Below are positions 1 to 64,000 of a DNA stretch of 64,000 bases, piece by piece. The notes below the pieces were generated by a model that searched no databases, was not told the origin of the DNA, and saw nothing but the letters and a program-made list of their open reading frames with translations. The position numbers and the translations under genes are program-made. Where the stretch lies: contig NW_027506915.1 of NCBI RefSeq assembly GCF_052324685.1, positions 310,001-374,000 on the forward strand, given 5' to 3'. This DNA is from Brachyhypopomus gauderio (lineage: Eukaryota > Chordata > Actinopteri > Gymnotiformes > Hypopomidae). Numbering within the stretch: position 1 is the stretch's first letter; each line of letters opens with the position of its first letter.

Positions 1-254
1 TTCTCAAAAAGCAATTCAAATTGTTCTAACCATTGGTGGGACCAACCCGTGGCCTTTTACCATCCACGTGTCCAAAATGCAGTACGCATGCCAATGTTGT
101 TAACAGACATACGTGTTGGTAGCTCTACATGTCCAACTGGTACAGTGTGAGGTTTCCTCTTTGGTGGACCTTAAAGAGTTGAAAAAGCCACAACCGAACT
201 GGTATCTTTGTCAACGTCCTTGTTTCTGGATCTATGCTGCATGTGCGTCAGAAT
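1..254. other. Spacer upstream of tRNA-Tyr (unit 1 example)
   Basis: No gene is supported here. It holds a CACGTG at 65-70 that is CACATG or CATGTG in some units, and several CATG-centred words. The short open frame starting at 113 runs into tRNA-Tyr and recurs in every unit only because the DNA recurs. The spacer is nearly invariant between units. The main exception is the 46-bp deletion in units 53 and 59. Confidence 0.8.
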
Positions 255-341
255 CCTTCGGTAGCTCAGATGGTAGAGCGGAGGACTGTAGAGGTTAAAG
301 CAGCAATCCTTAGGCCACCGGTTCAAATCCGGTTCGAAGGA
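255..341 (+). tRNA. tRNA-Tyr-GTA: tRNA-Tyr (GUA) with 14-nt intron, unit 1
   Basis: Decodes UAC and UAU as tyrosine; transcribed by RNA polymerase III. The 87-bp gene gives a 73-nt mature tRNA. The acceptor stem pairs CCTTCGG with TCGAAGG (G7-U66 wobble) and the discriminator is A73. The D stem is GCTC/GAGC, the anticodon stem GAGGA/TCCTT with loop CTGTAGA, and the T stem ACCGG/CCGGT with loop TTCAAAT. The intron is 292-305, directly after G37, the usual eukaryotic place, so tRNA splicing endonuclease is needed. The internal promoter is an A box at 262-273 (TAGCTCAGATGG) and a B box at 320-330 (GGTTCAAATCC). No CCA is encoded. It faces the Glu gene across 63 bp. I am very sure of the identity; whether this copy is expressed cannot be seen. 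Confidence 0.98.
292..305 (+). other. Intron of tRNA-Tyr (unit 1)
   Basis: These 14 nt lie between positions 37 and 38 of the tRNA. Removing them restores a 7-nt anticodon loop and a 5-bp anticodon stem. The intron is the same in all units, including the seven with broken Tyr genes, except for one T to C change in units 43, 53 and 59. Confidence 0.93.
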
Positions 342-347
342 AGCTTC

Positions 348-355
348 TTTTTTTT
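348..355 (+). terminator. Pol III terminator of tRNA-Tyr (T8, unit 1)
   Basis: A run of eight T begins 7 nt after the discriminator base. A run of this length is a strong Pol III stop. The same site has 7 to 10 T in other units, as expected from slippage of a homopolymer, and always stays above the usual four-T minimum. Confidence 0.93.
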
Positions 356-389
356 CCAGGATATTACTGCCCTTAATGTCATGATGAGC

Positions 390-394
390 AAAAA
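390..394 (-). terminator. Pol III terminator of tRNA-Glu (T5 on minus strand, unit 1)
   Basis: AAAAA on + is five T on -, beginning 11 nt past the Glu discriminator. It shares the 63-bp convergent spacer with the Tyr terminator. In units 33, 36, 38 and 39 it is AAAGA, which leaves only three T. Confidence 0.88.
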
Positions 395-404
395 GTTTTC
401 TGAT

Positions 405-476
405 TTCCCTGACCGGGAATCGAACCCGGGCCGCGGCGGTGAGAGCGCCGAATCCTAGCCACTAGACCATCAGGGA
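405..476 (-). tRNA. tRNA-Glu-CTC: tRNA-Glu (CUC), unit 1
   Basis: Decodes GAG as glutamate. Read on -, the 72-nt gene starts TCCCTGA at 476 and pairs it with TCAGGGA near 406-412. The discriminator is A, the complement of T405. The anticodon stem is CGGCG/CGCCG around loop CTCTCAC, with anticodon CTC. The T stem is CCGGG/CCCGG around TTCGATT. The B box is GGTTCGATTCC (416-426 on -). No intron and no encoded CCA. Compared with human tRNA-Glu-CTC as I recall it, only position 7 (A, giving a Watson-Crick A7-U66 pair) and one D-loop base differ. It converges with Tyr and diverges from Lys. Identity is very secure. Confidence 0.98.
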
Positions 477-680
477 CAGCTATGTTATGCTAATGAATGA
501 AGGCTTTTTCATGAGTTCTGGCTGGCCGTTATTCATGAGTGAAGAAAGACCAGAATGTGGGTTATTCGTGACCACACCAGAACATGTGGACCTTTTTGTG
601 TCAAGACTGTCAAATGCTTCCCATGTCAGAGGTCAAGAATATCTGGACATGTTCTGAATCACAGAGCAAGGATAAACGTA
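477..680. promoter_or_regulatory. Divergent spacer between tRNA-Glu (-) and tRNA-Lys (+), unit 1
   Basis: This 204-bp stretch is the 5' flank of both Glu and Lys. It contains a perfect 10-bp inverted repeat, CAGAACATGT at 578-587 and ACATGTTCTG at 647-656, with 59 bp between the arms and the second arm ending 24 bp before Lys. Eight or so units have CAGAACAAGT in the first arm, so the pairing is not strictly kept. Units 7, 16 and 26 lack 2 bp (GT) here. Tyr, Glu and Lys promoters are internal, so a regulatory role is only a possibility. Confidence 0.4.
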
Positions 681-753
681 GCCTGGATAGCTCAGTCGGT
701 AGAGCATCAGACTTTTAATCTGAGGGTCCAGGGTTCAAGTCCCTGTTCAGGCG
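681..753 (+). tRNA. tRNA-Lys-TTT: tRNA-Lys (UUU), unit 1
   Basis: Decodes AAA and AAG as lysine. The 73-nt gene has acceptor stem GCCTGGA/TTCAGGC (G6-U67 wobble), discriminator G, D stem GCTC/GAGC, anticodon stem TCAGA/TCTGA around loop CTTTTAA (anticodon TTT), and T stem CAGGG/CCCTG around TTCAAGT. The A box is 688-699 (TAGCTCAGTCGG) and the B box 732-742 (GGTTCAAGTCC). No intron and no CCA. It differs from the human Lys-TTT I recall at pair 4-69, U-A in place of C-G, a compensated change. No T run of four or more follows within 50 bp, unlike Tyr and Glu. Confidence 0.98.
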
Positions 754-818
754 TTGAACTTTACATGACCGTCAGCTCTTGAGCACCGTTCACTCATCGT
801 CAGGCAGGCTATTGGATT

Positions 819-836
819 AAGCTGAACTTCCAGCTT
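819..836 (+). other. Short hairpin in the Lys trailer (unit 1)
   Basis: AAGCTG and CAGCTT pair perfectly over 6 bp with a 6-nt loop. Looser flanking complementarity (CAGGCAGGC against GTCTGCCTACCTG) could lengthen it. In units 2, 11, 20 and 30 a G to T change (CATCTT) breaks one stem pair. Function unknown. Confidence 0.35.
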
Positions 837-873
837 TACGTCTGCCTACCTGTGACTTCCTTGTCATTAATTC

Positions 874-877
874 TTTT
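874..877 (+). terminator. First T4 downstream of tRNA-Lys in unit 1 (possible Pol III stop)
   Basis: In unit 1 the first run of four T after Lys is 121 bp downstream. Most other units have an extra T4 at 57 bp downstream (for example 2751-2754 in unit 3), which unit 1 lacks because it reads CTATTGG there. Four T is a weak stop in vertebrates. Confidence 0.4.
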
Positions 878-929
878 GTCTATGTCCTTGTTAATGATGA
901 CAAAAAAAACACCAATTAAAGCCACTCAG

Positions 930-6576: not shown

Positions 6577-7048
6577 TTGAACTTTACATGACCGTCAGCT
6601 CTTGAGCACCGTTCAGTCATCGTCAGGCAGGCTATTGGATTAGGCTGAACTTCCAGCTTTACGTCTGCCTACCTGTGACTTCCTTGTCATTAATTATTTT
6701 GTCTATGTCCTTGTTAATGATGACAAAAAAAACAACAATTAAAGCCACTCAGCCTTTCCTTTCTCTCTCTCTCTATGTGACATCACAATAGATTTTCTCA
6801 AAAAGCAATTCAAATTGTTCTAACCATTGGTGGGACCAACCCGTGGCCTTTTACCATCCACGTGTCCAAAATGCAGTACACATGCCAATGTTGTTAACAG
6901 ACATACGTGTTGGTAGCTCTACATGTCCAACTGGTACAGTGTGAGGTTTCCTCTTTGGTGGACCTTAAAGAGTTGAAAAAGCCACAACCGAACTGGTATC
7001 TTTGTCAACGTCCTTGTTTCTGGATCTATGCTGCATGTGCGTCAGAAT

Positions 7049-7135
7049 CCTTCGGTAGCTCAGATGGTAGAGCGGAGGACTGTAGAGGTTAAAGCAGCAA
7101 TCCTTAGGCCACCGGTTCAAATCCGGTTCGAAGGA
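7049..7135 (+). tRNA. tRNA-Tyr-GTA: tRNA-Tyr, unit 8
   Basis: No change seen. Confidence 0.96.
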
Positions 7136-7198
7136 AGCTTCTTTTTTTTCCAGGATATTACTGCCCTTAATGTCAAGATGAGCAAAAAGTTTTCTGTT

Positions 7199-7270
7199 TT
7201 CCCTGACCGGGAATCGAACCCGGGCCGCGGCGGTGAGAGCGCCGAATCCTAGCCACTAGACCATCAGGGA
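7199..7270 (-). tRNA. tRNA-Glu-CTC: tRNA-Glu, unit 8
   Basis: No change seen. Confidence 0.96.
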
Positions 7271-7474
7271 CAGCGATGGAATGCTAATGAATGAAGGCTT
7301 TTACATGAGTTCTGGCTGGCCGTTATTCATGAGTGAAGAAAGACCAGAATGTGGGTTATTCGTGACCACACCAGAACATGTGGACCTTTTTGTGTCAAGA
7401 CTGTCAAATGCTTCCCATGTCAGAGGTTAAGAATATCTGGACATGTTCTGAATCACAGAGCAAGGTTAAACGTA

Positions 7475-7547
7475 GCCTGGATAGCTCAGTCGGTAGAGCA
7501 TCAGACTTTTAATCTGAGGGTCCAGGGTTCAAGTCCCTGTTCAGGCG
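7475..7547 (+). tRNA. tRNA-Lys-TTT: tRNA-Lys, unit 8
   Basis: No change seen. Confidence 0.97.
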
Positions 7548-8019
7548 TTGAACTTTACATGACCGTCAGCTCTTGAGCACCGTTCAGTCATCGTCAGGCA
7601 GACTTTTGGATTAAGCTGAACTTCCAGCTTTACGTCTGCCTACCTGTGACTTCCTTGTCATTAATTATTTTGTCTATGTCCTTGTTAATGATGACAAAAA
7701 AAACACCAATTAAAGCCACTCAGCCTTTCCTTTCTCTCTCTCTCTATGTGACATCACAATAGATTTTCTCAAAAAGCAATTCAAATTGTTCTAACCATTG
7801 GTGGGACCAACCCGTGGCCTTTTACCATCCACGTGTCCAAAATGCAGTACGCATGCCAATGTTGTTAACAGACATACGTGTTGGTAGCTCTACATGTCCA
7901 ACTGGTACAGTGTGAGGTTTCCTCTTTGGTGGACCTTAAAGAGTTGAAAAAGCCACAACCGAACTGGTATCTTTGTCAACGTCCTTGTTTCTGGATCTAT
8001 GCTGCATGTGAGTCAGGAT

Positions 8020-8106
8020 CCTTCGGTAGCTCAGATGGTAGAGCGGAGGACTGTAGAGGTTAAAGCAGCAATCCTTAGGCCACCGGTTCAAATCCGGTTC
8101 GAAGGA
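8020..8106 (+). tRNA. tRNA-Tyr-GTA: tRNA-Tyr, unit 9
   Basis: No change seen in the gene; the flank has the type-H GGATCC word overlapping its first bases. Confidence 0.96.
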
Positions 8107-8169
8107 AGCTTCTTTTTTTTCCAGGATATTACTGCCCTTAATGTCATGATGAGCAAAAAGTTTTCTGTT

Positions 8170-8241
8170 TTCCCTGACCGGGAATCGAACCCGGGCCGCG
8201 GCGGTGAGAGCGCCGAATCCTAGCCACTAGACCATCAGGGA
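8170..8241 (-). tRNA. tRNA-Glu-CTC: tRNA-Glu, unit 9
   Basis: No change seen. Confidence 0.96.
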
Positions 8242-8445
8242 CAGCTATGTTATGCTAATGAATGAAGGCTTTTTCATGAGTTCTGGCTGGCCGTTATTCA
8301 TGAGTGAAGAAAGACCAGAATGTGGGTTATTCGTGACCACACCAGAACATGTGGACCTTTTTGTGTCAAGACTGTCAAATGCTTCCCATGTCAGAGGTTA
8401 AGAATATCTGGACATGTTCTGAATCACAGAGCAAGGTTAAACGTA

Positions 8446-8518
8446 GCCTGGATAGCTCAGTCGGTAGAGCATCAGACTTTTAATCTGAGGGTCCAGGGTT
8501 CAAGTCCCTGTTCAGGCG
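8446..8518 (+). tRNA. tRNA-Lys-TTT: tRNA-Lys, unit 9
   Basis: No change seen. Confidence 0.97.
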
Positions 8519-8990
8519 TTGAACTTTACATGACCGTCAGCTCTTGAGCACCGTTCAGTCATCGTCAGGCAGACTTTTGGATTAAGCTGAACTTCCAGCT
8601 TTACGTCTGCCTACCTGTGACTTCCTTGTCATTAATTATTTTGTCTATGTCCTTGTTAATGATGACAAAAAAAACACCAATTAAAGCCACTCAGCCTTTC
8701 CTTTCTCTCTCTCTCTATGTGACATCACAATAGATTTTCTCAAAAAGCAATTCAAATTGTTCTAACCATTGGTGGGACCAACCCGTGGCCTTTTACCATC
8801 CACGTGTCCAAAATGCAGTACGCATGCCAATGTTGTTAACAGACATACGTGTTGGTAGCTCTACATGTCCAACTGGTACAGTGTGAGGTTTCCTCTTTGG
8901 TGGACCTTAAAGAGTTGAAAAAGCCACAACCGAACTGGTATCTTTGTCAACGTCCTTGTTTCTGGATCTATGCTGCATGTGCGTCAGAAT

Positions 8991-9077
8991 CCTTCGGTAG
9001 CTCAGATGGTAGAGCGGAGGACTGTAGAGGTTAAAGCAGCAATCCTTAGGCCACCGGTTCAAATCCGGTTCGAAGGA
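8991..9077 (+). tRNA. tRNA-Tyr-GTA: tRNA-Tyr, unit 10
   Basis: No change seen. Confidence 0.96.
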
Positions 9078-9140
9078 AGCTTCTTTTTTTTCCAGGATAT
9101 TACTGCCCTTAATGTCATGATGAGCAAAAAGTTTTCTGAT

Positions 9141-9212
9141 TTCCCTGACCGGGAATCGAACCCGGGCCGCGGCGGTGAGAGCGCCGAATCCTAGCCACTA
9201 GACCATCAGGGA
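9141..9212 (-). tRNA. tRNA-Glu-CTC: tRNA-Glu, unit 10
   Basis: No change seen. Confidence 0.96.
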
Positions 9213-9416
9213 CAGCTATGTTATGCTAATGAATGAAGGCTTTTTCATGAGTTCTGGCTGGCCGTTATTCATGAGTGAAGAAAGACCAGAATGTGGGTTA
9301 TTCGTGACCACACCAGAACATGTGGACCTTTTTGTGTCAAGACTGTCAAATGCTTCCCATGTCAGAGGTCAAGAATATCTGGACATGTTCTGAATCACAG
9401 AGCAAGGATAAACGTA

Positions 9417-9489
9417 GCCTGGATAGCTCAGTCGGTAGAGCATCAGACTTTTAATCTGAGGGTCCAGGGTTCAAGTCCCTGTTCAGGCG
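9417..9489 (+). tRNA. tRNA-Lys-TTT: tRNA-Lys, unit 10
   Basis: No change seen. Confidence 0.97.
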
Positions 9490-9961
9490 TTGAACTTTAC
9501 ATGACCGTCAGCTCTTGAGCACCGTTCACTCATCGTCAGGCAGGCTATTGGATTAAGCTGAACTTCCAGCTTTACGTCTGCCTACCTGTGACTTCCTTGT
9601 CATTAATTCTTTTGTCTATGTCCTTGTTAATGATGACAAAAAAAACACCAATTAAAGCCACTCAGCCTTTCCTTTCTCTCTCTCTCTATGTGACATCACA
9701 ATAGATTTTCTCAAAAAGCAATTCAAATTGTTCTAACCATTGGTGGGACCAACCCGTGGCCTTTTACCATCCACGTGTCCAAAATGCAGTACGCATGCCA
9801 ATGTTGTTAACAGACATACGTGTTGGTAGCTCTACATGTCCAACTGGTACAGTGTGAGGTTTCCTCTTTGGTGGACCTTAAAGAGTTGAAAAAGCCACAA
9901 CCGAACTGGTATCTTTGTCAACGTCCTTGTTTCTGGATCTATGCTGCATGTGCGTCAGAAT

Positions 9962-10048
9962 CCTTCGGTAGCTCATATGGTAGAGCGGAGGACTGTAGAG
10001 GTTAAAGCAGCAATCCTTAGGCCACCGGTTCAAATCCGGTTCGAAGGA
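9962..10048 (+). tRNA. tRNA-Tyr-GTA: tRNA-Tyr, unit 11, U15 variant
   Basis: G15 to T, as in unit 2. Confidence 0.85.
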
Positions 10049-10110
10049 AGCTTCTTTTTTTCCAGGATATTACTGCCTTTAATGTCATGATGAGCAAAAA
10101 GTTTTCTGTT

Positions 10111-10182
10111 TTCCCTGACCGGGAATCGAACCCGGGCCGCGGCGGTGAGAGCGCCGAATCATAGCCACTAGACCATCAGGGA
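10111..10182 (-). tRNA. tRNA-Glu-CTC: tRNA-Glu, unit 11, U22 variant
   Basis: G22 to U in the D stem, as in unit 2. Confidence 0.85.
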
Positions 10183-10386
10183 CAGCGATGGAATGCTAAT
10201 GAATGAAGGCTTTTACATGAGTTCTGGCTGGCCGTTATTCATGAGTGAAGAAAGACCAGAATGTGGGTTATTCGTGACCACACCAGAACATGTGGACCTT
10301 TTTGTGTCAAGACTGTCAAATGCTTCCCATGTCAGAGGTCAAGAATATCTGGACATGTTCTGAATCACAGAGCAAGGTTAAACGTA

Positions 10387-10459
10387 GCCTGGATAGCTCA
10401 GTCGGCAGAGCATCAGACTTTTAATCTGAGGGTCCAGGGTTCAAGTCCCTGTTCAGGCG
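10387..10459 (+). tRNA. tRNA-Lys-TTT: tRNA-Lys, unit 11, C20 variant
   Basis: T20 to C in the D loop, as in unit 2. Confidence 0.93.
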
Positions 10460-10931
10460 TTGAACTTTACATGACCGTCAGCTTTTGAGCACCGTTCACT
10501 CATCGTCAGGCAGGCTTTTGGATTAAGCTGAACTTCCATCTTTACGTCTGCCTACCTGTGACTTCCTTGTCATTAATTATTTTGTCTATGTCCTTGTTAA
10601 TGATGACAAAAAAAACAACAATTAAAGCCACTCAGCCTTTCCTTTCTCTCTCTCTCTATGTGACATCACAATAGATTTTCTCAAAAAGCAATTCAAATTG
10701 TTCTAACCATTGGTGGGACCAACCCGTGGCCTTTTACCATCCACGTGTCCAAAATGCAGTACGCATGCCAATGTTGTTAACAGACATACGTGTTGGTAGC
10801 TCTACATGTCCAACTGGTACAGTGTGAGGTTTCCTCTTTGGTGGACCTTAAAGAGTTGAAAAAGCCACAACCGAACTGGTATCTTTGTCAACGTCCTTGT
10901 TTCTGGATCTATGCTGCATGTGCGTCAGAAT

Positions 10932-11018
10932 CCTTCGGTAGCTCAGATGGTAGAGCGGAGGACTGTAGAGGTTAAAGCAGCAATCCTTAGGCCACCGGTT
11001 CAAATCCGGTTCGAAGGA
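10932..11018 (+). tRNA. tRNA-Tyr-GTA: tRNA-Tyr, unit 12
   Basis: No change seen. Confidence 0.96.
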
Positions 11019-11081
11019 AGCTTCTTTTTTTTTCAGGATATTACTGCCTTTAATGTCATGATGAGCAAAAAGTTTTCTGTT

Positions 11082-11153
11082 TCCCCTGACCGGGAATCGA
11101 ACCCGGGCCACGGCGGTGAGAGCGCCGAATCCTAGCCACTAGACCATCAGGGA
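11082..11153 (-). tRNA. tRNA-Glu-CTC: tRNA-Glu, unit 12, G72/U44 variant
   Basis: U1-G72 wobble and U44, as in unit 3. Confidence 0.9.
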
Positions 11154-11357
11154 CAGCGATGTTATGCTAATGGATGAAGGCCTTTACATGAGTTCTGGCT
11201 GGCCGTTATTCATGAGTGAAGAAAGACCAGAATGTGGGTTATTCGTGACCACACCAGAACAAGTGGACCTTTTTGTGTCAAGACTGTCAAATGCTTCCCA
11301 TGTCAGAGGTCAAGAATATCTGGACATGTTCTGAATCACAGAGCAAGGCTAAATGTA

Positions 11358-11430
11358 GCCTGGATAGCTCAGTCGGTAGAGCATCAGACTTTTAATCTGA
11401 GGGTCCAGGGTTCAAGTCCCTGTTCAGGCG
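11358..11430 (+). tRNA. tRNA-Lys-TTT: tRNA-Lys, unit 12
   Basis: No change seen in the gene; flank AAATGTA. Confidence 0.97.
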
Positions 11431-11902
11431 TTGAACTTTACATGACCGTCAGCTCTTGAGCACCGTTCAGTCATCGTCAGGCAGGCTTTTGGATTAAGCT
11501 GAACTTCCAGCTTTACGTCTGCCTACCTGTGACTTCCTTGTCATTAATTATTTTGTCTATGTCCTTGTTAATGATGACAAAAAAAACAACAATTAAAGCC
11601 ACTCAGCCTTTCCTTTCTCTCTCTCTCTATGTGACATCACAATAGATTTTCTCAAAAAGCAATTCAAATTGTTCTAACCATTGGTGGGACCAACCCGTGG
11701 CCTTTTACCATCCACGTGTCCAAAATGCAGTACGCATGCCAATGTTGTTAACAGACATACGTGTTGGTAGCTCTACATGTCCAACTGGTACAGTGTGAGG
11801 TTTCCTCTTTGGTGGACCTTAAAGAGTTGAAAAAGCCACAACCGAACTGGTATCTTTGTCAACGTCCTTGTTTCTGGATCTATGCTGCATGTGCATCAGA
11901 AT

Positions 11903-11989
11903 CCTTCGGTAGCTCAGATGGTAGAGCGGAGGACTGTAGAGGTTAAAGCAGCAATCCTTAGGCCACCGGTTCAAATCCGGTTCGAAGGA
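11903..11989 (+). tRNA. tRNA-Tyr-GTA: tRNA-Tyr, unit 13
   Basis: No change seen. Confidence 0.96.
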
Positions 11990-12052
11990 AGCTTCTTTTT
12001 TTTCCAGGATATTACTGCCTTTAATGTCATGATGAGCAAAAAGTTTTCTGTT

Positions 12053-12124
12053 TTCCCTGACCGGGAATCGAACCCGGGCCGCGGCGGTGAGAGCGCCGAA
12101 TCCTAGCCACTAGACCATCAGGGA
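12053..12124 (-). tRNA. tRNA-Glu-CTC: tRNA-Glu, unit 13
   Basis: No change seen. Confidence 0.96.
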
Positions 12125-12328
12125 CAGCGATGTTATGCTAATGGATGAAGGCCTTTACATGAGTTCTGGCTGGCCGTTATTCATGAGTGAAGAAAGACCA
12201 GAATGTGGGTTATTCGTGACCACACCAGAACATGTGGACCTTTTTGTGTCAAGACTGTCAAATGCTTCCCATGTCAGAGGTCAAGAATATCTGGACATGT
12301 TCTGAATCACAGAGCAAGGCTAAACGTA

Positions 12329-12401
12329 GCCTGGATAGCTCAGTAGGTAGAGCATCAGACTTTTAATCTGAGGGTCCAGGGTTCAAGTCCCTGTTCAGGC
12401 G
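12329..12401 (+). tRNA. tRNA-Lys-TTT: tRNA-Lys, unit 13, A17 variant
   Basis: C17 to A in the D loop. Confidence 0.95.
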
Positions 12402-12873
12402 TTGAACTTTACATGACCGTCAGCTCTTGAGCACCGTTCACTCATCGTCAGGCAGGCTATTGGATTAAGCTGAACTTCCAGCTTTACGTCTGCCTACCTG
12501 TGACTTCCTTGTCATTAATTCTTTTGTCTATGTCCTTGTTAATGATGACAAAAAAAACAACAATTAAAGCCACTCAGCCTTTCCTTTCTCTCTCTCTCTA
12601 TGTGACATCACAATAGATTTTCTCAAAAAGCAATTCAAATTGTTCTAACCATTGGTGGGACCAACCCGTGGCCTTTTACCATCCACGTGTCCAAAATGCA
12701 GTACGCATGCCAATGTTGTTAACAGACATACGTGTTGGTAGCTCTACATGTCCAACTGGTACAGTGTGAGGTTTCCTCTTTGGTGGACCTTAAAGAGTTG
12801 AAAAAGCCACAACCGAACTGGTATCTTTGTCAACGTCCTTGTTTCTGGATCTATGCTGCATGTGCGTCAGAAT

Positions 12874-12960
12874 CCTTCGGTAGCTCAGATGGTAGAGCGG
12901 AGGACTGTAGAGGTTAAAGCAGCAATCCTTAGGCCACCGGTTCAAATCCGGTTCGAAGGA
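12874..12960 (+). tRNA. tRNA-Tyr-GTA: tRNA-Tyr, unit 14
   Basis: No change seen. Confidence 0.96.
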
Positions 12961-13023
12961 AGCTTCTTTTTTTTTCAGGATATTACTGCCTTTAATGTCA
13001 TGATGAGCAAAAAGTTTTCTGTT

Positions 13024-13095
13024 TCCCCTGACCGGGAATCGAACCCGGGCCACGGCGGTGAGAGCGCCGAATCCCAGCCACTAGACCATCAGGGA
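13024..13095 (-). tRNA. tRNA-Glu-CTC: tRNA-Glu, unit 14, G72/U44/G21
   Basis: U1-G72 wobble, U44 and A21 to G. Lacks the C56 change of unit 6. Confidence 0.8.
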
Positions 13096-13299
13096 CAGCG
13101 ATGTTATGCTAATGGATGAAGGCCTTTACATGAGTTCTGGCTGGCCGTTATTCATGAGTGAAGAAAGACCAGAATGTGGGTTATTCGTGACCACACCAGA
13201 ACAAGTGGACCTTTTTGTGTCAAGACTGTCAAATGCTTCCCATGTCAGAGGTCAAGAATATCTGGACATGTTCTGAATCACAGAGCAAGGCTAAACGTA

Positions 13300-13372
13300 G
13301 CCTGGATAGCTCAGTCGGTAGAGCATCAGACTTTTAATCTGAGGGTCCAGGGTTCAAGTCCCTGTTCAGGCG
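13300..13372 (+). tRNA. tRNA-Lys-TTT: tRNA-Lys, unit 14
   Basis: No change seen. Confidence 0.97.
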
Positions 13373-13844
13373 TTGAACTTTACATGACCGTCAGCTCTTG
13401 AGCACCGTTCAGTCATCGTCAGGCAGGCTTTTGGATTAAGCTGAACTTCCAGCTTTACGTCTGCCTACCTGTGACTTCCTTGTCATTAATTATTTTGTCT
13501 ATGTCCTTGTTAATGATGACAAAAAAAACAACAATTAAAGCCACTCAGCCTTTCCTTTCTCTCTCTCTCTATGTGACATCACAATAGATTTTCTCAAAAA
13601 GCAATTCAAATTGTTCTAACCATTGGTGGGACCAACCCGTGGCCTTTTACCATCCACGTGTCCAAAATGCAGTACGCATGCCAATGTTGTTAACAGACAT
13701 ACGTGTTGGTAGCTCTACATGTCCAACTGGTACAGTGTGAGGTTTCCTCTTTGGTGGACCTTAAAGAGTTGAAAAAGCCACAACCGAACTGGTATCTTTG
13801 TCAACGTCCTTGTTTCTGGATCTATGCTGCATGTGCGTCAGAAT

Positions 13845-13931
13845 CCTTCGGTAGCTCATATGGTAGAGCGGAGGACTGTAGAGGTTAAAGCAGCAATCCT
13901 TAGGCCACCGGTTCAAATCCGGTTCGAAGGA
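13845..13931 (+). tRNA. tRNA-Tyr-GTA: tRNA-Tyr, unit 15, U15 variant
   Basis: G15 to T. Confidence 0.85.
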
Positions 13932-13993
13932 AGCTTCTTTTTTTCCAGGATATTACTGCCTTTAATGTCATGATGAGCAAAAAGTTTTCTGTT

Positions 13994-14065
13994 TTCCCTG
14001 ACCGGGAATCGAACCCGGGCCACGGCGGTGAGAGCGCCGAATCCTAGCCACTAGACCATCAGGGA
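13994..14065 (-). tRNA. tRNA-Glu-CTC: tRNA-Glu, unit 15, U44 variant
   Basis: C44 to U only; unlike the type-B units 2 and 11, G22 is kept. Confidence 0.94.
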
Positions 14066-14269
14066 CAGCGATGGAATGCTAATGAATGAAGGCTTTTACA
14101 TGAGTTCTGGCTGGCCGTTATTCATGAGTGAAGAAAGACCAGAATGTGGGTTATTCGTGACCACACCAGAACATGTGGACCTTTTTGTGTCAAGACTGTC
14201 AAATGCTTCCCATGTCAGAGGTCAAGAATATCTGGACATGTTCTGAATCACAGAGCAAGGTTAAACGTA

Positions 14270-14342
14270 GCCTGGATAGCTCAGTCGGTAGAGCATCAGA
14301 CTTTTAATCTGAGGGTCCAGGGTTCAAGTCCCTGTTCAGGCG
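14270..14342 (+). tRNA. tRNA-Lys-TTT: tRNA-Lys, unit 15
   Basis: No change seen; T20 is kept, unlike units 2 and 11. Confidence 0.97.
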
Positions 14343-14814
14343 TTGAACTTTACATGACCGTCAGCTCTTGAGCACCGTTCAGTCATCGTCAGGCAGGCTT
14401 TTGGATTAAGCTGAACTTCCAGCTTTACGTCTGCCTACCTGTGACTTCCTTGTCATTAATTATTTTGTCTATGTCCTTGTTAATGATGACAAAAAAAACA
14501 ACAATTAAAGCCACTCAGCCTTTCCTTTCTCTCTCTCTCTATGTGACATCACAATAGATTTTCTCAAAAAGCAATTCAAATTGTTCTAACCATTGGTGGG
14601 ACCAACCCGTGGCCTTTTACCATCCACGTGTCCAAAATGCAGTACGCATGCCAATGTTGTTAACAGACATACGTGTTGGTAGCTCTACATGTCCAACTGG
14701 TACAGTGTGAGGTTTCCTCTTTGGTGGACCTTAAAGAGTTGAAAAAGCCACAACCGAACTGGTATCTTTGTCAACGTCCTTGTTTCTGGATCTATGCTGC
14801 ATGTGCGTCAGAAT

Positions 14815-36192: not shown

Positions 36193-36254
36193 AGCTTCTT
36201 TTTTTCCAGGATATTACTACCTTTAATGTCATGATGAGCAAAGAGTTTTCTGTT

Positions 36255-36603: not shown

Positions 36604-37075
36604 TTGAACTTTACATGACCGTCAGCTCTTGAGCACCGTTCAGTCATCATCAGGCAGGCTTTTGGATTAAGCTGAACTTCCAGCTTTACGTCTGCCTACC
36701 TGTGACTTCCTTGTCATTAATTCTTTTGTCTATGTCCTTGTTAATGATGACAAAAAAAACACCAATTAAAGCCACTCAGCCTTTCCTTTCTCTCTCTCTC
36801 TATGTGACATCACAATAGATTTTCTCAAAAAGCAATTCAAATTGTTCTAACCATTGGTGGGACCAACCCGTGGCCTTTTACCATCCACGTGTCCAAAATG
36901 CAGTACGCATGCCAATGTTGTTAACAGACATACGTGTTGGTAGCTCTACATGTCCAACTGGTACAGTGTGAGGTTTCCTCTTTGGTGGACCTTAAAGAGT
37001 TGAAAAAGCCACAACCGAACTGGTATCTTTGTCAACGTCCTTGTTTCTGGATCTATGCTGCATGTGCGTCAGAAT

Positions 37076-37151
37076 CCTTCGGTAGCTCAGATGGTAGAGC
37101 GGAGGACTGTAGAGGTTAAAGCAGCAATCCTTAGGCCACCGGTTCAAAGGA
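37076..37151 (+). pseudogene. tRNA-Tyr pseudogene, unit 39 (I deletion)
   Basis: Same deletion as unit 33. Confidence 0.93.
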
Positions 37152-37213
37152 AGCTTCTTTTTTTCCAGGATATTACTACCTTTAATGTCATGATGAGCAA
37201 AGAGTTTTCTGTT

Positions 37214-37285
37214 TTCCCTGACCGGGAATCGAACCCGGGCCGCGGCGGTGAGAGCGCCAAATCCTAGCCACTAGACCATCAGGGA
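37214..37285 (-). tRNA. tRNA-Glu-CTC: tRNA-Glu, unit 39, U27 and terminator lost
   Basis: C27 to U gives a U27-G43 wobble in the anticodon stem. AAAGA at 37199-37203 replaces the terminator. Confidence 0.88.
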
Positions 37286-37489
37286 CAGCGATGTTATGCT
37301 AATGAATGAAGGCTTTTACATGAGTTCTGGCTGGCCGTTATTCATGAGTGAAGAAAGACCAGAATGTGGGTTATTCGTGACCACACCAGAACATGTGGAC
37401 CTTTTTGTGTCAAGACTGTCAAATGCTTCCCATGTCAGAGGTCAAGAATATCTGGACATGTTCTGAATCACAGAGCAAGTCTAAACGTA

Positions 37490-37562
37490 GCCTGGATAGC
37501 TCAGTCGGTAGAGCATCAGACTTTTAATCTGAGGGTCCAGGGTTCAAGTCCCTGTTCAGGCG
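37490..37562 (+). tRNA. tRNA-Lys-TTT: tRNA-Lys, unit 39
   Basis: No change seen. Confidence 0.97.
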
Positions 37563-38035
37563 TTGAACTTTACATGACCGTCAGCTCTTGAGCACCGTTC
37601 ACTCATCGTCAGGCAGGCTTTTGGATTAAGCTGAACTTCCAGCTTTACGTCTGCCTACCTGTGACTTCCTTGTCATTAATTCTTTTGTCTATGTCCTTGT
37701 TAATGATGACAAAAAAAACACCAATTAAAGCCACTCAGCCTTTCCTTTCTCTCTCTCTCTATGTGACATCACAATAGATTTTTCTCAAAAAGCAATTCAA
37801 ATTGTTCTAACCATTGGTGGGACCAACCCGTGGCCTTTTACCATCCACATGTCCAAAATGCAGTACGCATGCCAATGTTGTTAACAGACATACGTGTTGG
37901 TAGCTCTACATGTCCAACTGGTACAGTGTGAGGTTTCCTCTTTGGTGGACCTTAAAGAGTTGAAAAAGCCACAACCGAACTGGTATCTTTGTCAACGTCC
38001 TTGTTTCTGGATCTATGCTGCGTGTGCGTCAGAAT

Positions 38036-48239: not shown

Positions 48240-48710
48240 TTGAACTTTACATGACCGTCAGCTCTTGAGCACCGTTCACTCATCGTCAGGCAGGCTTTTG
48301 GATTAAGCTGAACTTCCAGCTTTACGTCTGCCTACCTGTGACTTCCTTGTCATTAATTATTTTGTCTATGTCCTTGTTAATGATGACAAAAAAACAACAA
48401 TTAAAGCCACTCAGCCTTTTCTTTCTCTCTCTCTCTATGTGACATCACAATAGATTTTCTCAAAAAGCAATTCAAATTGTTCTAACCATTGGTGGGACCA
48501 ACCCGTGGCCTTTTACCATCCACGTGTCCAAAATGCAGTACGCATGCCAATGTTGTTAACAGACATACGTGTTGGTAGCTCTACATGTCCAACTGGTACA
48601 GTGTGAGGTTTCCTCTTTGGTGGACCTTAAAGAGTTGAAAAAGCCACAACCGAACTGGTATCTTTGTCAACGTCCTTGTTTCTGGATCTATGCTGCATGT
48701 GCGTCAGAAT

Positions 48711-48797
48711 CCTTCGGTAGCTCAGATGGTAGAGCGGAGGACTGTAGAGGTTAAAGCAGCAATCCTTAGGCCACCGGTTCAAATCCGGTTCGAAGGA
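48711..48797 (+). tRNA. tRNA-Tyr-GTA: tRNA-Tyr, unit 51
   Basis: No change seen. Confidence 0.96.
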
Positions 48798-48860
48798 AGC
48801 TTCTTTTTTTTCCAGGATATTACTGCCTTTAATGTCATGATGAGCAAAAAGTTTTCTGTT

Positions 48861-48932
48861 TTCCCTGACCGGGAATCGAACCCGGGCCGTGGCCGTGAGA
48901 GCGCCGAATCCTAGCCACTAGACCATCAGGGA
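48861..48932 (-). tRNA. tRNA-Glu-CTC: tRNA-Glu, unit 51, damaged anticodon stem (K type)
   Basis: G39 and A43. Confidence 0.6.
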
Positions 48933-49136
48933 CAGCGATGTTATGCTAATGGATGAAGGCCTTTACATGAGTTCTGGCTGGCTGTTATTCATGAGTGAAG
49001 AAAGACCAGAATGTGGGTTATTCGTGACCACACCAGAACATGTGGACCTTTTTGTGTCAAGACTGTCAAATGCTTCCCATGTCAGAGGTCAAGAATATCT
49101 GGACATGTTCTGAATCACAGAGCAAGGCTAAACGTA

Positions 49137-49209
49137 GCCTGGATAGCTCAGTCGGTAGAGCATCAGACTTTTAATCTGAGGGTCCAGGGTTCAAGTGCCT
49201 GTTCAGGCG
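49137..49209 (+). tRNA. tRNA-Lys-TTT: tRNA-Lys, unit 51, G61 variant
   Basis: C61 to G breaks the nearly invariant G53-C61 pair and changes the B box (GGTTCAAGTGC). Only in this copy. Confidence 0.65.
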
Positions 49210-49681
49210 TTGAACTTTACATGACCGTCAGCTCTTGAGCACCGTTCACTCATCGTCAGGCAGGCTTTTGGATTAAGCTGAACTTCCAGCTTTACGTCTG
49301 CCTACCTGTGACTTCCTTGTCATTAATTATTTTGTCTATGTCCTTGTTAATGATGACAAAAAAAACACCAATTAAAGCCACTCAGCCTTTCCTTTCTCTC
49401 TCTCTCTATGTGACATCACAATAGATTTTCTCAAAAAGCAATTCAAATTGTTCTAACCATTGGTGGGACCAACCCGTGGCCTTTTACCATCCACGTGTCC
49501 AAAATGCAGTACGCATGCCAATGTTGTTAACAGACATACGTGTTGGTAGCTCTACATGTCCAACTGGTACAGTGTGAGGTTTCCTCTTTGGTGGACCTTA
49601 AAGAGTTGAAAAAGCCACAACCGAACTGGTATCTTTGTCAACGTCCTTGTTTCTGGATCTATGCTGCATGTGCGTCAGAAT

Positions 49682-49768
49682 CCTTCGGTAGCTCAGATGG
49701 TAGAGCGGAGGACTGTAGAGGTTAAAGCAGCAATCCTTAGGCCACCGGTTCAAATCCGGTTCGAAGGA
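49682..49768 (+). tRNA. tRNA-Tyr-GTA: tRNA-Tyr, unit 52
   Basis: No change seen. Confidence 0.96.
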
Positions 49769-49830
49769 AGCTTCTTTTTTTCCAGGATATTACTGCCTTT
49801 AATGTCATGATGAGCAAAAAGTTTTCTGTT

Positions 49831-49902
49831 TTCCCTGACCGGGAATCGAACCCGGGCCGCGGCGGTGAGAGCGCCGAATACTAGCCACTAGACCATCAGG
49901 GA
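49831..49902 (-). tRNA. tRNA-Glu-CTC: tRNA-Glu, unit 52, U23 variant
   Basis: G23 to U makes a C12-U23 mismatch in the D stem. Confidence 0.75.
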
Positions 49903-50106
49903 CAGCGATGGAATGCTAATGAATGAAGGCTTTTACATGAGTTCTGGCTGGCCGTTATTCATGAGTGAAGAAAGACCAGAATGTGGGTTATTCGTGACCA
50001 CACCAGAACATGTAGACCTTTTTGTGTCAAGACTGTCAAATGCTTCCCATGTCAGAGGTCAAGAATATCTGGACATGTTCTGAATCACAGAGCAAGGTTA
50101 AACGTA

Positions 50107-50179
50107 GCCTGGATAGCTCAGTCGGTAGAGCATCAGACTTTTAATCTGAGGGTCCAGGGTTCAAGTCCCTGTTCAGGCG
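50107..50179 (+). tRNA. tRNA-Lys-TTT: tRNA-Lys, unit 52
   Basis: No change seen. Confidence 0.97.
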
Positions 50180-50604
50180 TTGAACTTTACATGACCGTCA
50201 GCTCTTGAGCACCGTTCACTCATCGTCAGGCAGGCTTTTGGATTAAGCTGAACTTCCAGCTTTACGTCTGCCTACCTGTGACTTCCTTGTCATTAATTAT
50301 TTTGTCTATGTCCTTGTTAATGATGACAAAAAAACACCAATTAAAGCCACTCAGCCTTTCCTTTCTCTCTCTCTCTATGTGACATCACAATAGATTTTCT
50401 CAAAAAGCAATTCAAATTGTTCCAAAATGCAGTACGCATGCCAATGTTGTTAACAGACATACGTGTTGGTAGCTCTACATGTCCAACTGGTACAGTGTGA
50501 GGTTTCCTCTTTGGTGGACCTTAAAGAGTTGAAAAAGCCACAACCGAACTGGTATCTTTGTCAACGTCCTTGTTTCTGGATCTATGCTGCATGTGTGTCA
50601 GAAT

Positions 50605-50691
50605 CCTTTGGTAGCTCAGATGGTAGAGCGGAGGACTGTAGAGGTCAAAGCAGCAATCCTTAGGCCACCGGTTCAAATCCGGTTCGAAGGA
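50605..50691 (+). tRNA. tRNA-Tyr-GTA: tRNA-Tyr, unit 53, U5 variant (M type)
   Basis: U5-G68 wobble and the intron change of unit 43. A 46-bp deletion lies about 180 bp upstream. Confidence 0.88.
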
Positions 50692-50754
50692 AGCTTCTTT
50701 TTTTTCCAGGATATTACTGCCTTTAATGTCATGATGAGCAAAAAGTTTTCTGTT

Positions 50755-50826
50755 TTCCCTGACCGGGAATCGAACCCGGGCCGCGGCGGTGAGAGCGCCG
50801 AATCCTAGCCACTAGACCATCAGGGA
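50755..50826 (-). tRNA. tRNA-Glu-CTC: tRNA-Glu, unit 53
   Basis: No change seen. Confidence 0.96.
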
Positions 50827-51030
50827 CAGCGATGTTATGCTAATGGATGAAGGCCTTTACATGAGTTCTGGCTGGCCGTTATTCATGAGTGAAGAAAGAC
50901 CAGAATGTGGGTTATTCGTGACCACACCAGAACATGTGGACCTTTTTGTGTCAAGACTGTCAAATGCTTCCCATGTCAGAGGTCAAGAATATCTGGACAT
51001 GTTCTGAATCACAGAGCAAGGCTAAACGTA

Positions 51031-51103
51031 GCCTGGATAGCTCAGTCGGTAGAGCATCAGACTTTTAATCTGAGGGTCCAGGGTTCAAGTCCCTGTTCAG
51101 GTG
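51031..51103 (+). tRNA. tRNA-Lys-TTT: tRNA-Lys, unit 53, U72 variant
   Basis: C72 to T leaves a G1-U72 wobble at the acceptor end. Confidence 0.88.
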
Positions 51104-51575
51104 TTGAACTTTACATGACCGTCAGCTCTTGAGCACCGTTCAGTCATCGTCAGGCAGGCTTTTGGATTAAGCTGAACTTCCAGCTTTACGTCTGCCTACA
51201 TGTGACTTCCTTGTCATTAATTATTTTGTCTATGTCCTTGTTAATGATGACAAAAAAAACAACAATTAAAGCCACTCAGCCTTTCCTTTCTCTCTCTCTC
51301 TATGTGACATCACAATAGATTTTCTCAAAAAGCAATTCAAATTGTTCTAACCATTGGTGGGACCAACCCGTGGCCTTTTACCATCCACGTGTCCAAAATG
51401 CAGTACGCATGCCAATGTTGTTAACAGACATACGTGTTGGTAGCTCTACATGTCCAACTGGTACAGTGTGAGGTTTCCTCTTTGGTGGACCCTAAAGAGT
51501 TGAAAAAGCCACAACCGAACTGGTATCTTTGTCAACATCCTTGTTTCTGGATCTATGCTGCATGTGCGTCAGAAT

Positions 51576-51662
51576 CCTTCGGTAGCTCAGATGGTAGAGC
51601 GGAGGACTGTAGAGGTTAAAGCAGCAATCCTTAGGCCACCGGTTCAAATCCGGTTCGAAGGA
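51576..51662 (+). tRNA. tRNA-Tyr-GTA: tRNA-Tyr, unit 54
   Basis: No change seen. Confidence 0.96.
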
Positions 51663-51725
51663 AGCTTCTTTTTTTTCCAGGATATTACTGCCTTTAATGT
51701 CATGATGAGCAAAAAGTTTTCTGTT

Positions 51726-51797
51726 TTCCCTGACCGGGAATCGAACCCGGGCCGCGGCGGTGAGAGCGCCGAATCCTAGCCACTAGACCATCAGGGA
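51726..51797 (-). tRNA. tRNA-Glu-CTC: tRNA-Glu, unit 54
   Basis: No change seen. Confidence 0.96.
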
Positions 51798-52001
51798 CAG
51801 CGATGTTATGCTAATGAATGAAGGCTTTTACATGAGTTCTGGCTGGCCGTTATTCATGAGTGAAGAAAGACCAGAATGTGGGTTATTCGTGACCACACCA
51901 GAACATGTGGACCTTTTTGTGTCAAGACTGTCAAATGCTTCCCATGTCAGAGGTCAAGAATATCTGGACATGTTCTGAATCACAGAGCAAGCCTAAACGT
52001 A

Positions 52002-52074
52002 GCCTGGATAGCTCAGTCGGTAGAGCATCAGACTTTTAATCTGAGGGTCCAGCGTTCAAGTCCCTGTTCAGGCG
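52002..52074 (+). tRNA. tRNA-Lys-TTT: tRNA-Lys, unit 54, C52 variant
   Basis: G52 to C. Confidence 0.7.
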
Positions 52075-52545
52075 TTGAACTTTACATGACCGTCAGCTCT
52101 TGAGCACCGTTCACTCATCGTCAGGCAGGCTTTTGGATTAAGCTGAACTTCCAGCTTTACGTCTGCCTACCTGTGACTTCCTTGTCATTAATTATTTTGT
52201 CTATGTCCTTGTTAATGATGACAAAAAAACACCAATTAAAGCCACTCAGCCTTTCCTTTCTCTCTCTCTCTATGTGACATCACAATAGATTTTCTCAAAA
52301 AGCAATTCAAATTGTTCTAACCATTGGTGGGACCAACCCGTGGCCTTTTACCATCCACGTGTCCAAAATGCAGTACGCATGCCAATGTTGGTAACAGACA
52401 TACGTGTTGGTAGCTCTACATGTCCAACTGGTACAGTGTGAGGTTTCCTCTTTGGTGGACCCTAAAGAGTTGAAAAAGCCACAACCGAACTGGTATCTTT
52501 GTCAACATCCTTGTTTCTGGATCTATGCTGCATGTGCGTCAGAAT

Positions 52546-52632
52546 CCTTCGGTAGCTCAGATGGTAGAGCGGAGGACTGTAGAGGTTAAAGCAGCAATCC
52601 TTAGGCCACCGGTTCAAATCCGGTTCGAAGGA
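52546..52632 (+). tRNA. tRNA-Tyr-GTA: tRNA-Tyr, unit 55
   Basis: No change seen. Confidence 0.96.
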
Positions 52633-52695
52633 AGCTTCTTTTTTTTCCAGGATATTACTGCCTTTAATGTCATGATGAGCAAAAAGTTTTCTGTT

Positions 52696-52767
52696 TTCCC
52701 TGACCGGGAATCGAACCCGGGCCGCGGCGGTGAGAGCGCCGAATCCTAGCCACTAGACCATCAGGGA
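52696..52767 (-). tRNA. tRNA-Glu-CTC: tRNA-Glu, unit 55
   Basis: No change seen. Confidence 0.96.
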
Positions 52768-52971
52768 CAGCGATGTTATGCTAATGAATGAAGGCTTTTA
52801 CATGAGTTCTGGCTGGCCGTTATTCATGAGTGAAGAAAGACCAGAATGTGGGTTATTCGTGACCACACCAGAACATGTGGACCTTTTTGTGTCAAGACTG
52901 TCAAATGCTTCCCATGTCAGAGGTCAAGAATATCTGGACATGTTCTGAATCACAGAGCAAGCCTAAACGTA

Positions 52972-53044
52972 GCCTGGATAGCTCAGTCGGTAGAGCATCA
53001 GACTTTTAATCTGAGGGTCCAGCGTTCAAGTCCCTGTTCAGGCG
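52972..53044 (+). tRNA. tRNA-Lys-TTT: tRNA-Lys, unit 55, C52 variant
   Basis: G52 to C. Confidence 0.7.
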
Positions 53045-53515
53045 TTGAACTTTACATGACCGTCAGCTCTTGAGCACCGTTCACTCATCGTCAGGCAGGC
53101 TTTTGGATTAAGCTGAACTTCCAGCTTTACGTCTGCCTACCTGTGACTTCCTTGTCATTAATTATTTTGTCTATGTCCTTGTTAATGATGACAAAAAAAC
53201 ACCAATTAAAGCCACTCAGCCTTTCCTTTCTCTCTCTCTCTATGTGACATCACAATAGATTTTCTCAAAAAGCAATTCAAATTGTTCTAACCATTGGTGG
53301 GACCAACCCGTGGCCTTTTACCATCCACGTGTCCAAAATGCAGTACGCATGCCAATGTTGTTAACAGACATACGTGTTGGTAGCTCTACATGTCCAACTG
53401 GTACAGTGTGAGGTTTCCTCTTTGGTGGACCCTAAAGAGTTGAAAAAGCCACAACCGAACTGGTATCTTTGTCAACATCCTTGTTTCTGGATCTATGCTG
53501 CATGTGCGTCAGAAT

Positions 53516-61730: not shown

Positions 61731-62203
61731 TTGAACTTTACATGACCGTCAGCTCTTGAGCACCGTTCACTCATCGTCAGGCAGGCTTTTGGATTAAGCT
61801 GAACTTCCAGCTTTACGTCTGCCTACCTGTGACTTCCTTGTCATTAATTCTTTTGTCTATGTCCTTGTTAATGATGACAAAAAAAAACACCAATTAAAGC
61901 CACTCAGCCTTTCCTTTCTCTCTCTCTCTATGTGACATCACAATAGATTTTCTCAAAAAGCAATTCAAATTGTTCTAACCATTGGTGGGACCAACCCGTG
62001 GCCTTTTACCATCCACGTGTCCAAAATGCAGTACGCATGCCAATGTTGTTAACAGACATACGTGTTGGTAGCTCTACATGTCCAACTGGTACAGTGTGAG
62101 GTTTCCTCTTTGGTGGACCTTAAAGAGTTGAAAAAGCCACAACCGAACTGGTATCTTTGTCAACGTCCTTGTTTCTGGATCTATGCTGCATGTGCGTCAG
62201 AAT

Positions 62204-62290
62204 CCTTCGGTAGCTCAGATGGTAGAGCGGAGGACTGTAGAGGTTAAAGCAGCAATCCTTAGGCCACCGGTTCAAATCCGGTTCGAAGGA
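62204..62290 (+). tRNA. tRNA-Tyr-GTA: tRNA-Tyr, unit 65
   Basis: No change seen. Confidence 0.96.
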
Positions 62291-62353
62291 AGCTTCTTTT
62301 TTTTCCAGGATATTACTGCCTTTAATGTCATGATGAGCAAAAAGTTTTCTGTT

Positions 62354-62425
62354 TTCCCTGACCGGGAATCGAACCCGGGCCGCGGCGGTGAGAGCGCCGA
62401 ATCCTAGCCACTAGACCATCAGGGA
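62354..62425 (-). tRNA. tRNA-Glu-CTC: tRNA-Glu, unit 65
   Basis: No change seen. Confidence 0.96.
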
Positions 62426-62629
62426 CAGCGATGTTATGCTAATGGATGAAGGCCTTTACATGAGTTCTGGCTGGCCGTTATTCATGAGTGAAGAAAGACC
62501 AGAATGTGGGTTATTCGTGACCACACCAGAACATGTGGACCTTTTTGTGTCAAGACTGTCAAATGCTTCCCATGTCAGAGGTCAAGAATATCTGGACATG
62601 TTCTGAATCACAGAGCAAAGCTAAACGTA

Positions 62630-62702
62630 GCCTGGATAGCTCAGTCGGTAGAGCATCAGACTTTTAATCTGAGGGTCCAGCGTTCAAGTCCCTGTTCAGG
62701 CG
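62630..62702 (+). tRNA. tRNA-Lys-TTT: tRNA-Lys, unit 65, C52 variant
   Basis: G52 to C. Confidence 0.7.
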
Positions 62703-63173
62703 TTGAACTTTACATGACCGTCAGCTCTTGAGCACCGTTCAGTCATCGTCAGGCAGGCTTTTGGATTAAGCTGAACTTCCAGCTTTACGTCTGCCTACAT
62801 GTGACTTCCTTGTCATTAATTATTTTGTCTATGTCCTTGTTAATGATGACAAAAAAACAACAATTAAAGCCACTCAGCTTTTCCTTTCTCTCTCTCTCTA
62901 TGTGACAACACAATAGATTTTCTCAAAAAGCAATTCAAATTGTTCTAACCATTGGTGGGACCAACTCGTGGCCTTTTACCATCCACGTGTCCAAAATGCA
63001 GTACGCATGCCAATGTTGTTAACAGACATACGTGTTGGTAGCTCTACATGTCCAACTGGTACAGTGTGAGGTTTCCTCTTTGGTGGACCCTAAAGAGTTG
63101 AAAAAGCCACAACCGAACTGGTATCTTTGTCAACATCCTTGTTTCTGGATCTATGCTGCATGTGCGTCAGAAT

Positions 63174-63260
63174 CCTTCGGTAGCTCAGATGGTAGAGCGG
63201 AGGACTGTAGAGGTTAAAGCAGCAATCCTTAGGCCACCGGTTCAAATCCGGTTCGAAGGA
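63174..63260 (+). tRNA. tRNA-Tyr-GTA: tRNA-Tyr, unit 66
   Basis: No change seen. Confidence 0.96.
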
Positions 63261-63323
63261 AGCTTCTTTTTTTTCCAGGATATTACTGCCTTTAATGTCA
63301 TGATGAGCAAAAAGTTTTCTGTT

Positions 63324-63395
63324 TTCCCTGACCGGGAATCGAACCCGGGCCGCGGCGGTGAGAGCGCCGAATCCTAGCCACTAGACCATCAGGGA
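63324..63395 (-). tRNA. tRNA-Glu-CTC: tRNA-Glu, unit 66
   Basis: No change seen. Confidence 0.96.
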
Positions 63396-63599
63396 CAGCG
63401 ATGTTATGCTAATGGATGAAGGCCTTTACATGAGTTCTGGCTGGCAGTTATTCATGAGTGAAGAAAGACCAGAATGTGGGTTATTCGTGACCACACCAGA
63501 ACATGTGGACCTTTTTGTGTCAAGACTGTCAAATGCTTCCCATGTCAGAGGTCAAGAATATCTGGACATGTTCTGAATCACAGAGCAAGGCTAAACGTA

Positions 63600-63672
63600 G
63601 CCTGGATAGCTCAGTCGGTAGAGCATCAGACTTTTAATCTGAGGGTCCAGGGTTCAAGTCCCTGTTCAGGCG
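63600..63672 (+). tRNA. tRNA-Lys-TTT: tRNA-Lys, unit 66
   Basis: No change seen. Last tRNA of the window. Confidence 0.97.
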
Positions 63673-63890
63673 TTGAACTTTACATGACCGTCAGCTCTTG
63701 AGCACCGTTCACTCATCGTCAGGCAGGCTTTTGGATTAAGCTGAACTTCCAGCTTTACGTCTGCCTACCTGTGACTTCCTTGTCATTAATTATTTTGTCT
63801 ATGTCCTTGTTAATGATGACAAAAAAAACAACAATTAAAGCCACTCAGCCTTTCCTTTCTCTCTCTCTCTATGTGACATCACAATAGATT

Positions 63891-64000
63891 TTCTCAAAAA
63901 GCAATTCAAATTGTTCTAACCATTGGTGGGACCAACCCGTGGCCTTTTACCATCCATGTGTCCAAAATGCAGTACGCATGCCAATGTTGTTAACAGACAT
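63891..64000 (+). repeat. Start of unit 67, cut by the window end
   Basis: Only the spacer upstream of tRNA-Tyr is present; the array continues beyond the window. Confidence 0.97.

Follow-up and report, generated by a model that had tools for sequence, protein, structure and literature searches.

A tandem array of tRNA-Tyr, tRNA-Glu and tRNA-Lys genes in the fish Brachyhypopomus gauderio

Introduction

Tandem arrays of transfer RNA (tRNA) genes are an established kind of genomic organization. In Xenopus laevis, a 3.18-kb repeat of tRNA-gene DNA (tDNA) holds eight tRNA genes, forms large tandem arrays and includes oocyte-type Tyr genes. Across Xenopus and Danio, nearly all tDNA pairs are parallel, and the commonest Danio pairs are K-N, K-S and R-T (Bermudez-Santana et al., PMC2888827). 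Zebrafish isodecoders of the egg and early embryo are encoded in highly repetitive regions and late ones by isolated genes, while those present at all stages have copies of both kinds (PMC11417395). The human 1q23.3 variable number tandem repeat (VNTR) has a GC-rich 7.3-kb unit with Leu, Gly, Glu, Gly and Asp genes and a CTCF site, and each allele carries 9-43 units (PMC4041453). In Entamoeba histolytica, nearly every tRNA gene belongs to an array in which short tandem repeats separate the genes (PMC2652664). Here we describe a 64,000-nucleotide stretch of Brachyhypopomus gauderio DNA (contig NW_027506915.1 of assembly GCF_052324685.1, positions 310,001 to 374,000; hereafter the window), all of which is a single tandem array of a compact unit with one Tyr, one Glu and one Lys tRNA gene. 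This combination was not found described. No Tyr/Glu/Lys unit appears among the matches listed for main texts of the open-licence literature, which agrees, within that scope, with a reading of the sequence alone, made earlier and without database searches (the sequence-only reading), in which this compact three-gene unit was not recognised as a known one.

Organization of the array

When bases 1-971 were compared with the window by BLASTN, the entire 64 kb resolved into plus-strand matches: 66 head-to-tail units followed by a tail of 110 bp. The array is open at both ends of the window, and 66 units is a lower bound. The unbroken succession of 66 unit matches and tail bears out the sequence-only reading, which had the array filling the window without a break and with both ends open. 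Its sixty-six units of 971 bp stand in number but not in length: 971 bp is only the modal length (30 units), with 15 units of 970 bp, nine of 969 bp and the other 12 between 925 and 972 bp. Identity to unit 1 ranges from 97.4 to 100%. The match spans the whole unit in 64 of the 66; in the other two it lacks the first 70 bases, and both carry a 46-bp deletion near the start. There are 46 distinct unit sequences among the 66, and pairs of units differ by 12.3 substitutions on average and by 22 at most. The GC content of the window is 45%. Tandem Repeats Finder, whose longest period is 500, reported no repeat in the window. A multi-gene tandem tDNA array consists of head-to-tail units with the same tRNA gene set, and this is the arrangement seen in all 66 units, 59 of them free of the Tyr deletion described below; the locus is thus a tandem tRNA array, as had been proposed.

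The units are also grouped into blocks. If near-identical pairs are taken as units no more than one substitution apart, the longest run of such pairs at one lag is eight units, against a maximum of three in 500 shuffles of unit order. Two long blocks, at lags of nine and six units (Table 1; block identities are taken from the unit alignment), are more alike than neighbouring units are, which is the mark of a higher-order satellite, and units 35-36 and 37-38 differ at none of 1,921 columns. Divergence rises slightly with the distance between units (Spearman 0.14, from non-independent pairs). The array has been rearranged in blocks of one to about ten units, so that whole stretches are copied together, dead genes included. 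Unequal exchange, occurring again and again, would be the simplest process to leave such a pattern.

tRNA genes of the repeat unit

Each unit carries Tyr on the plus strand, Glu on the minus strand and Lys on the plus strand, which confirms the gene set and orientations of the sequence-only reading. Tyr and Glu converge across a 63-bp spacer, and Glu and Lys diverge from a 204-bp spacer. Removal of the 14-nt intron from the Tyr gene leaves a 73-nt tRNA with the anticodon GTA; of the 59 undeleted copies, 58 have only standard stem pairs, and in unit 1 the minimum-energy fold alone gives the four arms. The Lys gene resembles vertebrate Lys tRNAs.

The Rfam tRNA model finds 191 matches above its cut-off in the window. 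The figure of 198 tRNA loci given earlier was therefore too high, as seven consecutive units have a damaged Tyr gene. Lys accounts for 66 matches, counted among the best 150 of the 191, and the total is best read as 66 Lys, 66 Glu and 59 Tyr, the Tyr genes comprising 59 full-length and seven deleted copies. Two of the seven deleted copies, scored directly, reach 27.3 and 27.7 bits, just short of the cut-off of 29, and the seven Tyr genes missing from the Rfam total would be the deleted copies of units 33-39. In its bacterial mode, ARAGORN reports 182 genes: every Glu and Lys gene (66 each) and, mislabelled Leu, 50 copies of Tyr. The sole output of its intron mode, an Asp call on 59 Tyr copies, was rejected because the intron is misplaced, and Rfam Plastid-ycf2 matches on the antisense strand of Lys were rejected as below cut-off.

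Intactness was judged by a rule of our own, resting on tRNA numbering, that calls for standard pairing in all stems and a match to the B box. By this rule 157 of the 198 copies are intact (Tyr 57/66, Glu 49/66, Lys 51/66); all three genes are intact in 31 units and none in one. The commonest version of each gene, found in 44 units for Tyr, 37 for Glu and 40 for Lys, has every stem pair standard and a B box. Units 33-39 carry an amplified dead Tyr gene that has lost 11 bp of its T-arm and B box.

Signals for RNA polymerase III (Pol III) were sought with A-box and B-box patterns, and each of the three consensus genes has both. A core B-box pattern survives in 180 of 198 copies (Tyr 58/66, Glu 61/66, Lys 61/66). 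Candidate terminators follow Tyr and Glu closely (Table 1); the four units without the Glu T5 run have no run of four or more T within the 63-bp Tyr-Glu spacer. Past Lys (754-900 of unit 1 and the equivalent place in all units) no T4 run lies nearby, so that Lys termination is doubtful or a weaker signal is used. Lys transcripts may bear a long 3′ trailer or stop at a weak signal. Separately, the Lys-Tyr spacer holds an 18-nt motif twice per unit, 303 bp apart and 89% identical in units 1-2, the examples examined; it is perhaps a chance likeness and perhaps a shared element.

Table 1. Positions of the array, its genes, blocks and candidate signals (window coordinates).
Feature	Position	Strand	Evidence or detail
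Tandem array, 66 units (modal 971 bp) and 110-bp tail, both ends open	1..64000		BLASTN
tRNA-Tyr(GUA), unit 1; 14-nt intron after position 37; corresponding place in every unit	255..341	+	Rfam RF00005, 57.5 bits; anticodon and intron read from sequence; fold with four arms
tRNA-Glu(CUC), unit 1	405..476	-	ARAGORN; Rfam 58 bits
tRNA-Lys(UUU), unit 1	681..753	+	ARAGORN; Rfam 73.9 bits (58-74 over 66 units)
T8 run 7 nt past Tyr, candidate Pol III terminator	348..355	+	T7-T10 at +7 in 66/66 units
T5 run 11 nt past Glu, candidate Pol III terminator	390..394	-	62/66 units
Seven-unit block (units 33-39), Tyr without 11 bp of T-arm and B box; deletion between short direct repeats	31059..37781	+	
Units 8-15, repeated at 15530-23294 (units 17-24; lag nine units)	6795..14560		2/7,766 columns differ
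Units 51-55, repeated at 54232-59036 (units 57-61; lag six units)	48457..53261		2/4,805 columns differ
925-bp unit with 46-bp spacer deletion; second copy at 56172-57096	50397..51321		
18-nt spacer motif	875-892 and 1178-1195; also 207-224, 1845-1862		

Variation in genes and spacer

The number of alleles to be expected in the genes was computed from spacer mutation rates, split by CpG context and base. The genes hold 29 substitution alleles against 29.0 expected, and 15 of these 29 are disruptive, in that a pair or an invariant position is broken, against 14.8 expected. If the Tyr genes of units 33-39 are left out of the count, 27 alleles stand against 29.0, with 14 of 27 disruptive against 13.9. 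The Poisson 5% point lies at 20 alleles, so that the smallest visible effect is a loss of about one-third, excluding the error of the spacer rates. With gene alleles equal to the spacer expectation, individual copies look dispensable.

Over all sites, the genes are more variable than the spacer (28/232 against 52/739 sites, p = 0.02), a result of their higher CpG content: variable CpG sites are alike in the two (12/30 in genes, 13/30 in spacer), and non-CpG sites show no clear difference (16/202 against 39/709, p = 0.24). Nucleotide diversity is 0.012 in the spacer, 0.009 in Tyr, 0.021 in Glu and 0.012 in Lys, computed with the Glu and Lys borders one base short. Non-CpG variable sites number 22/285 within 60 bp of a gene, 7/156 at 61-100 bp and 10/268 beyond 100 bp (near against far, p = 0.047), and transcription-associated mutation near the genes was dropped as an explanation because this contrast is too weak. 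A conserved spacer element was likewise set aside, as the longest stretch free of substitutions in all 66 units (101-170; 70 bp) is within chance for a unit with 80 variable sites (P = 0.15). No protein relative was found for a reading frame lying mostly in the spacer. Exact scans for a 31-base piece of spacer in viral and prokaryote collections, and for the Tyr intron region in viral contigs, gave no match, which says little because such collections are not built to contain animal DNA.

A TpG/CpA-type allele occurs at 21 of 60 CpG positions (35%), and the corresponding change at 18 of 381 other C/G positions (4.7%), an approximately 7-fold difference (odds ratio 10.9, p = 2e-10), and CpG stands at 0.47 of expectation in the spacer and 0.81 in the genes. 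Deamination-type CpG changes are the usual footprint of germ-line CpG methylation, and this decay suggests such methylation of the array; taken with the tRNA sequences, it also points to a vertebrate source. The sequence-only reading mentions neither this decay nor the higher-order blocks, the dead Tyr block and the spacer-like variation of the genes.

Proposed function of the array

It is plausible, and we hold with moderate confidence, that the locus is a recombining, methylated nuclear tDNA array of the Xenopus and zebrafish type that supplies tRNA for oocytes or early embryos. Each unit would consist of three Pol III genes read through their internal A and B boxes, with Tyr and Glu running towards each other and ending at T-run terminators close by, and with Glu and Lys transcribed outwards from the spacer between them. 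Such an array would be methylated in the germ line, silent in most cells, and read to meet a sudden high demand for tRNA, for which the growing oocyte or early embryo is the likeliest setting, while turnover keeps the consensus functional. A burst of supply at these stages is the most likely role by analogy with zebrafish, and the same analogy makes plausible the bulk supply in oocytes that the sequence-only reading put forward. Several observations weigh against it. The likeness to Xenopus and zebrafish is drawn as an analogy, and tRNA-Lys genes are 80% inhibited by methylation in Xenopus oocytes (cited in PMC12308677). Lys has no close T4 run: the distance to the first is 57 nt (52 units), 121 nt (ten units) or 24 nt (four units). 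In unit 1, the minimum-energy folds of Glu and Lys deviate partly from the cloverleaf, and folding is only moderately better than that of shuffled sequences for Tyr (z -1.7) and Glu (z -0.9), with Lys better (z -3.5). Finally, the 41 copies that fail the intactness rule, and variation between units that matches the spacer in the genes, are also what a useless array would show.

These last points are the ground of a serious rival, possible but doubtful in our judgement, in which the locus is selectively slack satellite DNA: a once-functional cluster, amplified by recombination and now mostly silent, in which the tRNA genes are incidental and have no selected role as a source of tRNA. The agreement of total and disruptive gene alleles with expectation, the dead Tyr gene repeated through seven consecutive units and the CpG decay that suggests methylation all accord with it. 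Yet the three consensus genes are intact, 31 units keep all three, and neutral variation between units is equally expected where many useful copies are redundant, so that spacer-like variation cannot separate a useful array from a useless one; where copies number 66 or more, selection on a single one would be too weak to see. It is improbable that selection acts instead on the array as a whole, through copy number, homogenization and density of TFIIIC sites rather than through single genes. The locus would then be a tRNA satellite with alpha-satellite-like higher-order organization, whose methylated and partly dead tRNA genes serve as a developmental switch or chromosomal domain. Slightly less probable still is a chromatin element proper, in which some 180 dense TFIIIC/Pol III sites act as a boundary or clustering domain and tRNA output is secondary; a Pol III-bound chromatin domain was the other role offered in the sequence-only reading. 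Barrier or boundary roles have been proposed for tDNA repeats, including human 1q23.3 (PMC4041453), and the core B box persists in most copies; against this, 18 of 198 copies lack it, and disruptive changes occur at the frequency that chance predicts. A CTCF core, used in place of the 24-bp site of the human repeat itself, has no match with up to two mismatches in the whole window, which is weak evidence because the window is one repeated unit and chance would give about half a match per unit. An assembly artefact in which a few real units were copied many times is very unlikely: the identity of some blocks, such as units 35-36 and 37-38, would fit it, but most units are distinct, and the substitutions and deletions that set them apart follow a block pattern. 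The precise number of copies may nonetheless be in error.

Whatever its role, the array carries natural tags in its Tyr, Glu and Lys variants, its Tyr intron and its dead Tyr block. These would let RNA sequencing show whether tRNA genes in arrays are transcribed, where this happens, and whether the dead blocks are silent. Copy-number filters can drop very high-copy tRNA genes from tRNA annotation (PMC11417395). The array is also a worked case in which tRNA gene copies vary as much as the spacer does, and it counsels caution where copy number is read as tRNA dosage.

Comparison with known tandem tRNA systems

Like the X. laevis repeat, the array is built from a tandem unit of vertebrate type in which several different tRNA genes are combined, Tyr and Lys among them; here, in contrast, three genes lie within 971 bp, Glu is included and orientations are mixed. 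Where pairs in Xenopus and Danio are mostly parallel, the adjacent pairs of this array are one parallel, one tail-to-tail and one head-to-head. With zebrafish chromosome 4 and other repetitive clusters it shares very large size and a mixture of tRNA genes, and the zebrafish clusters are tied to maternal isodecoders; no Y/E/K unit appears in the portions of these two sources that were covered (PMC11417395; PMC2888827). The human 1q23.3 VNTR is similar in its tandem unit, its several tRNA genes on both strands and its instability in blocks (PMC4041453), and the present unit differs in being 971 bp long, 45% GC and without a CTCF core match. Outside vertebrates, the arrays of Entamoeba (PMC2652664) and the RNA arrays of Hydractinia and Nematostella (PMC11067881) also place tRNA genes in tandem in other lineages. 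The SYY cluster of Arabidopsis differs in being a plant cluster of Ser and Tyr genes, and resembles the B. gauderio array in its tandem tDNA, its intron-bearing Tyr genes, its core and decayed copies and its methylation (PMC12308677), which in the present array is suggested by CpG decay.

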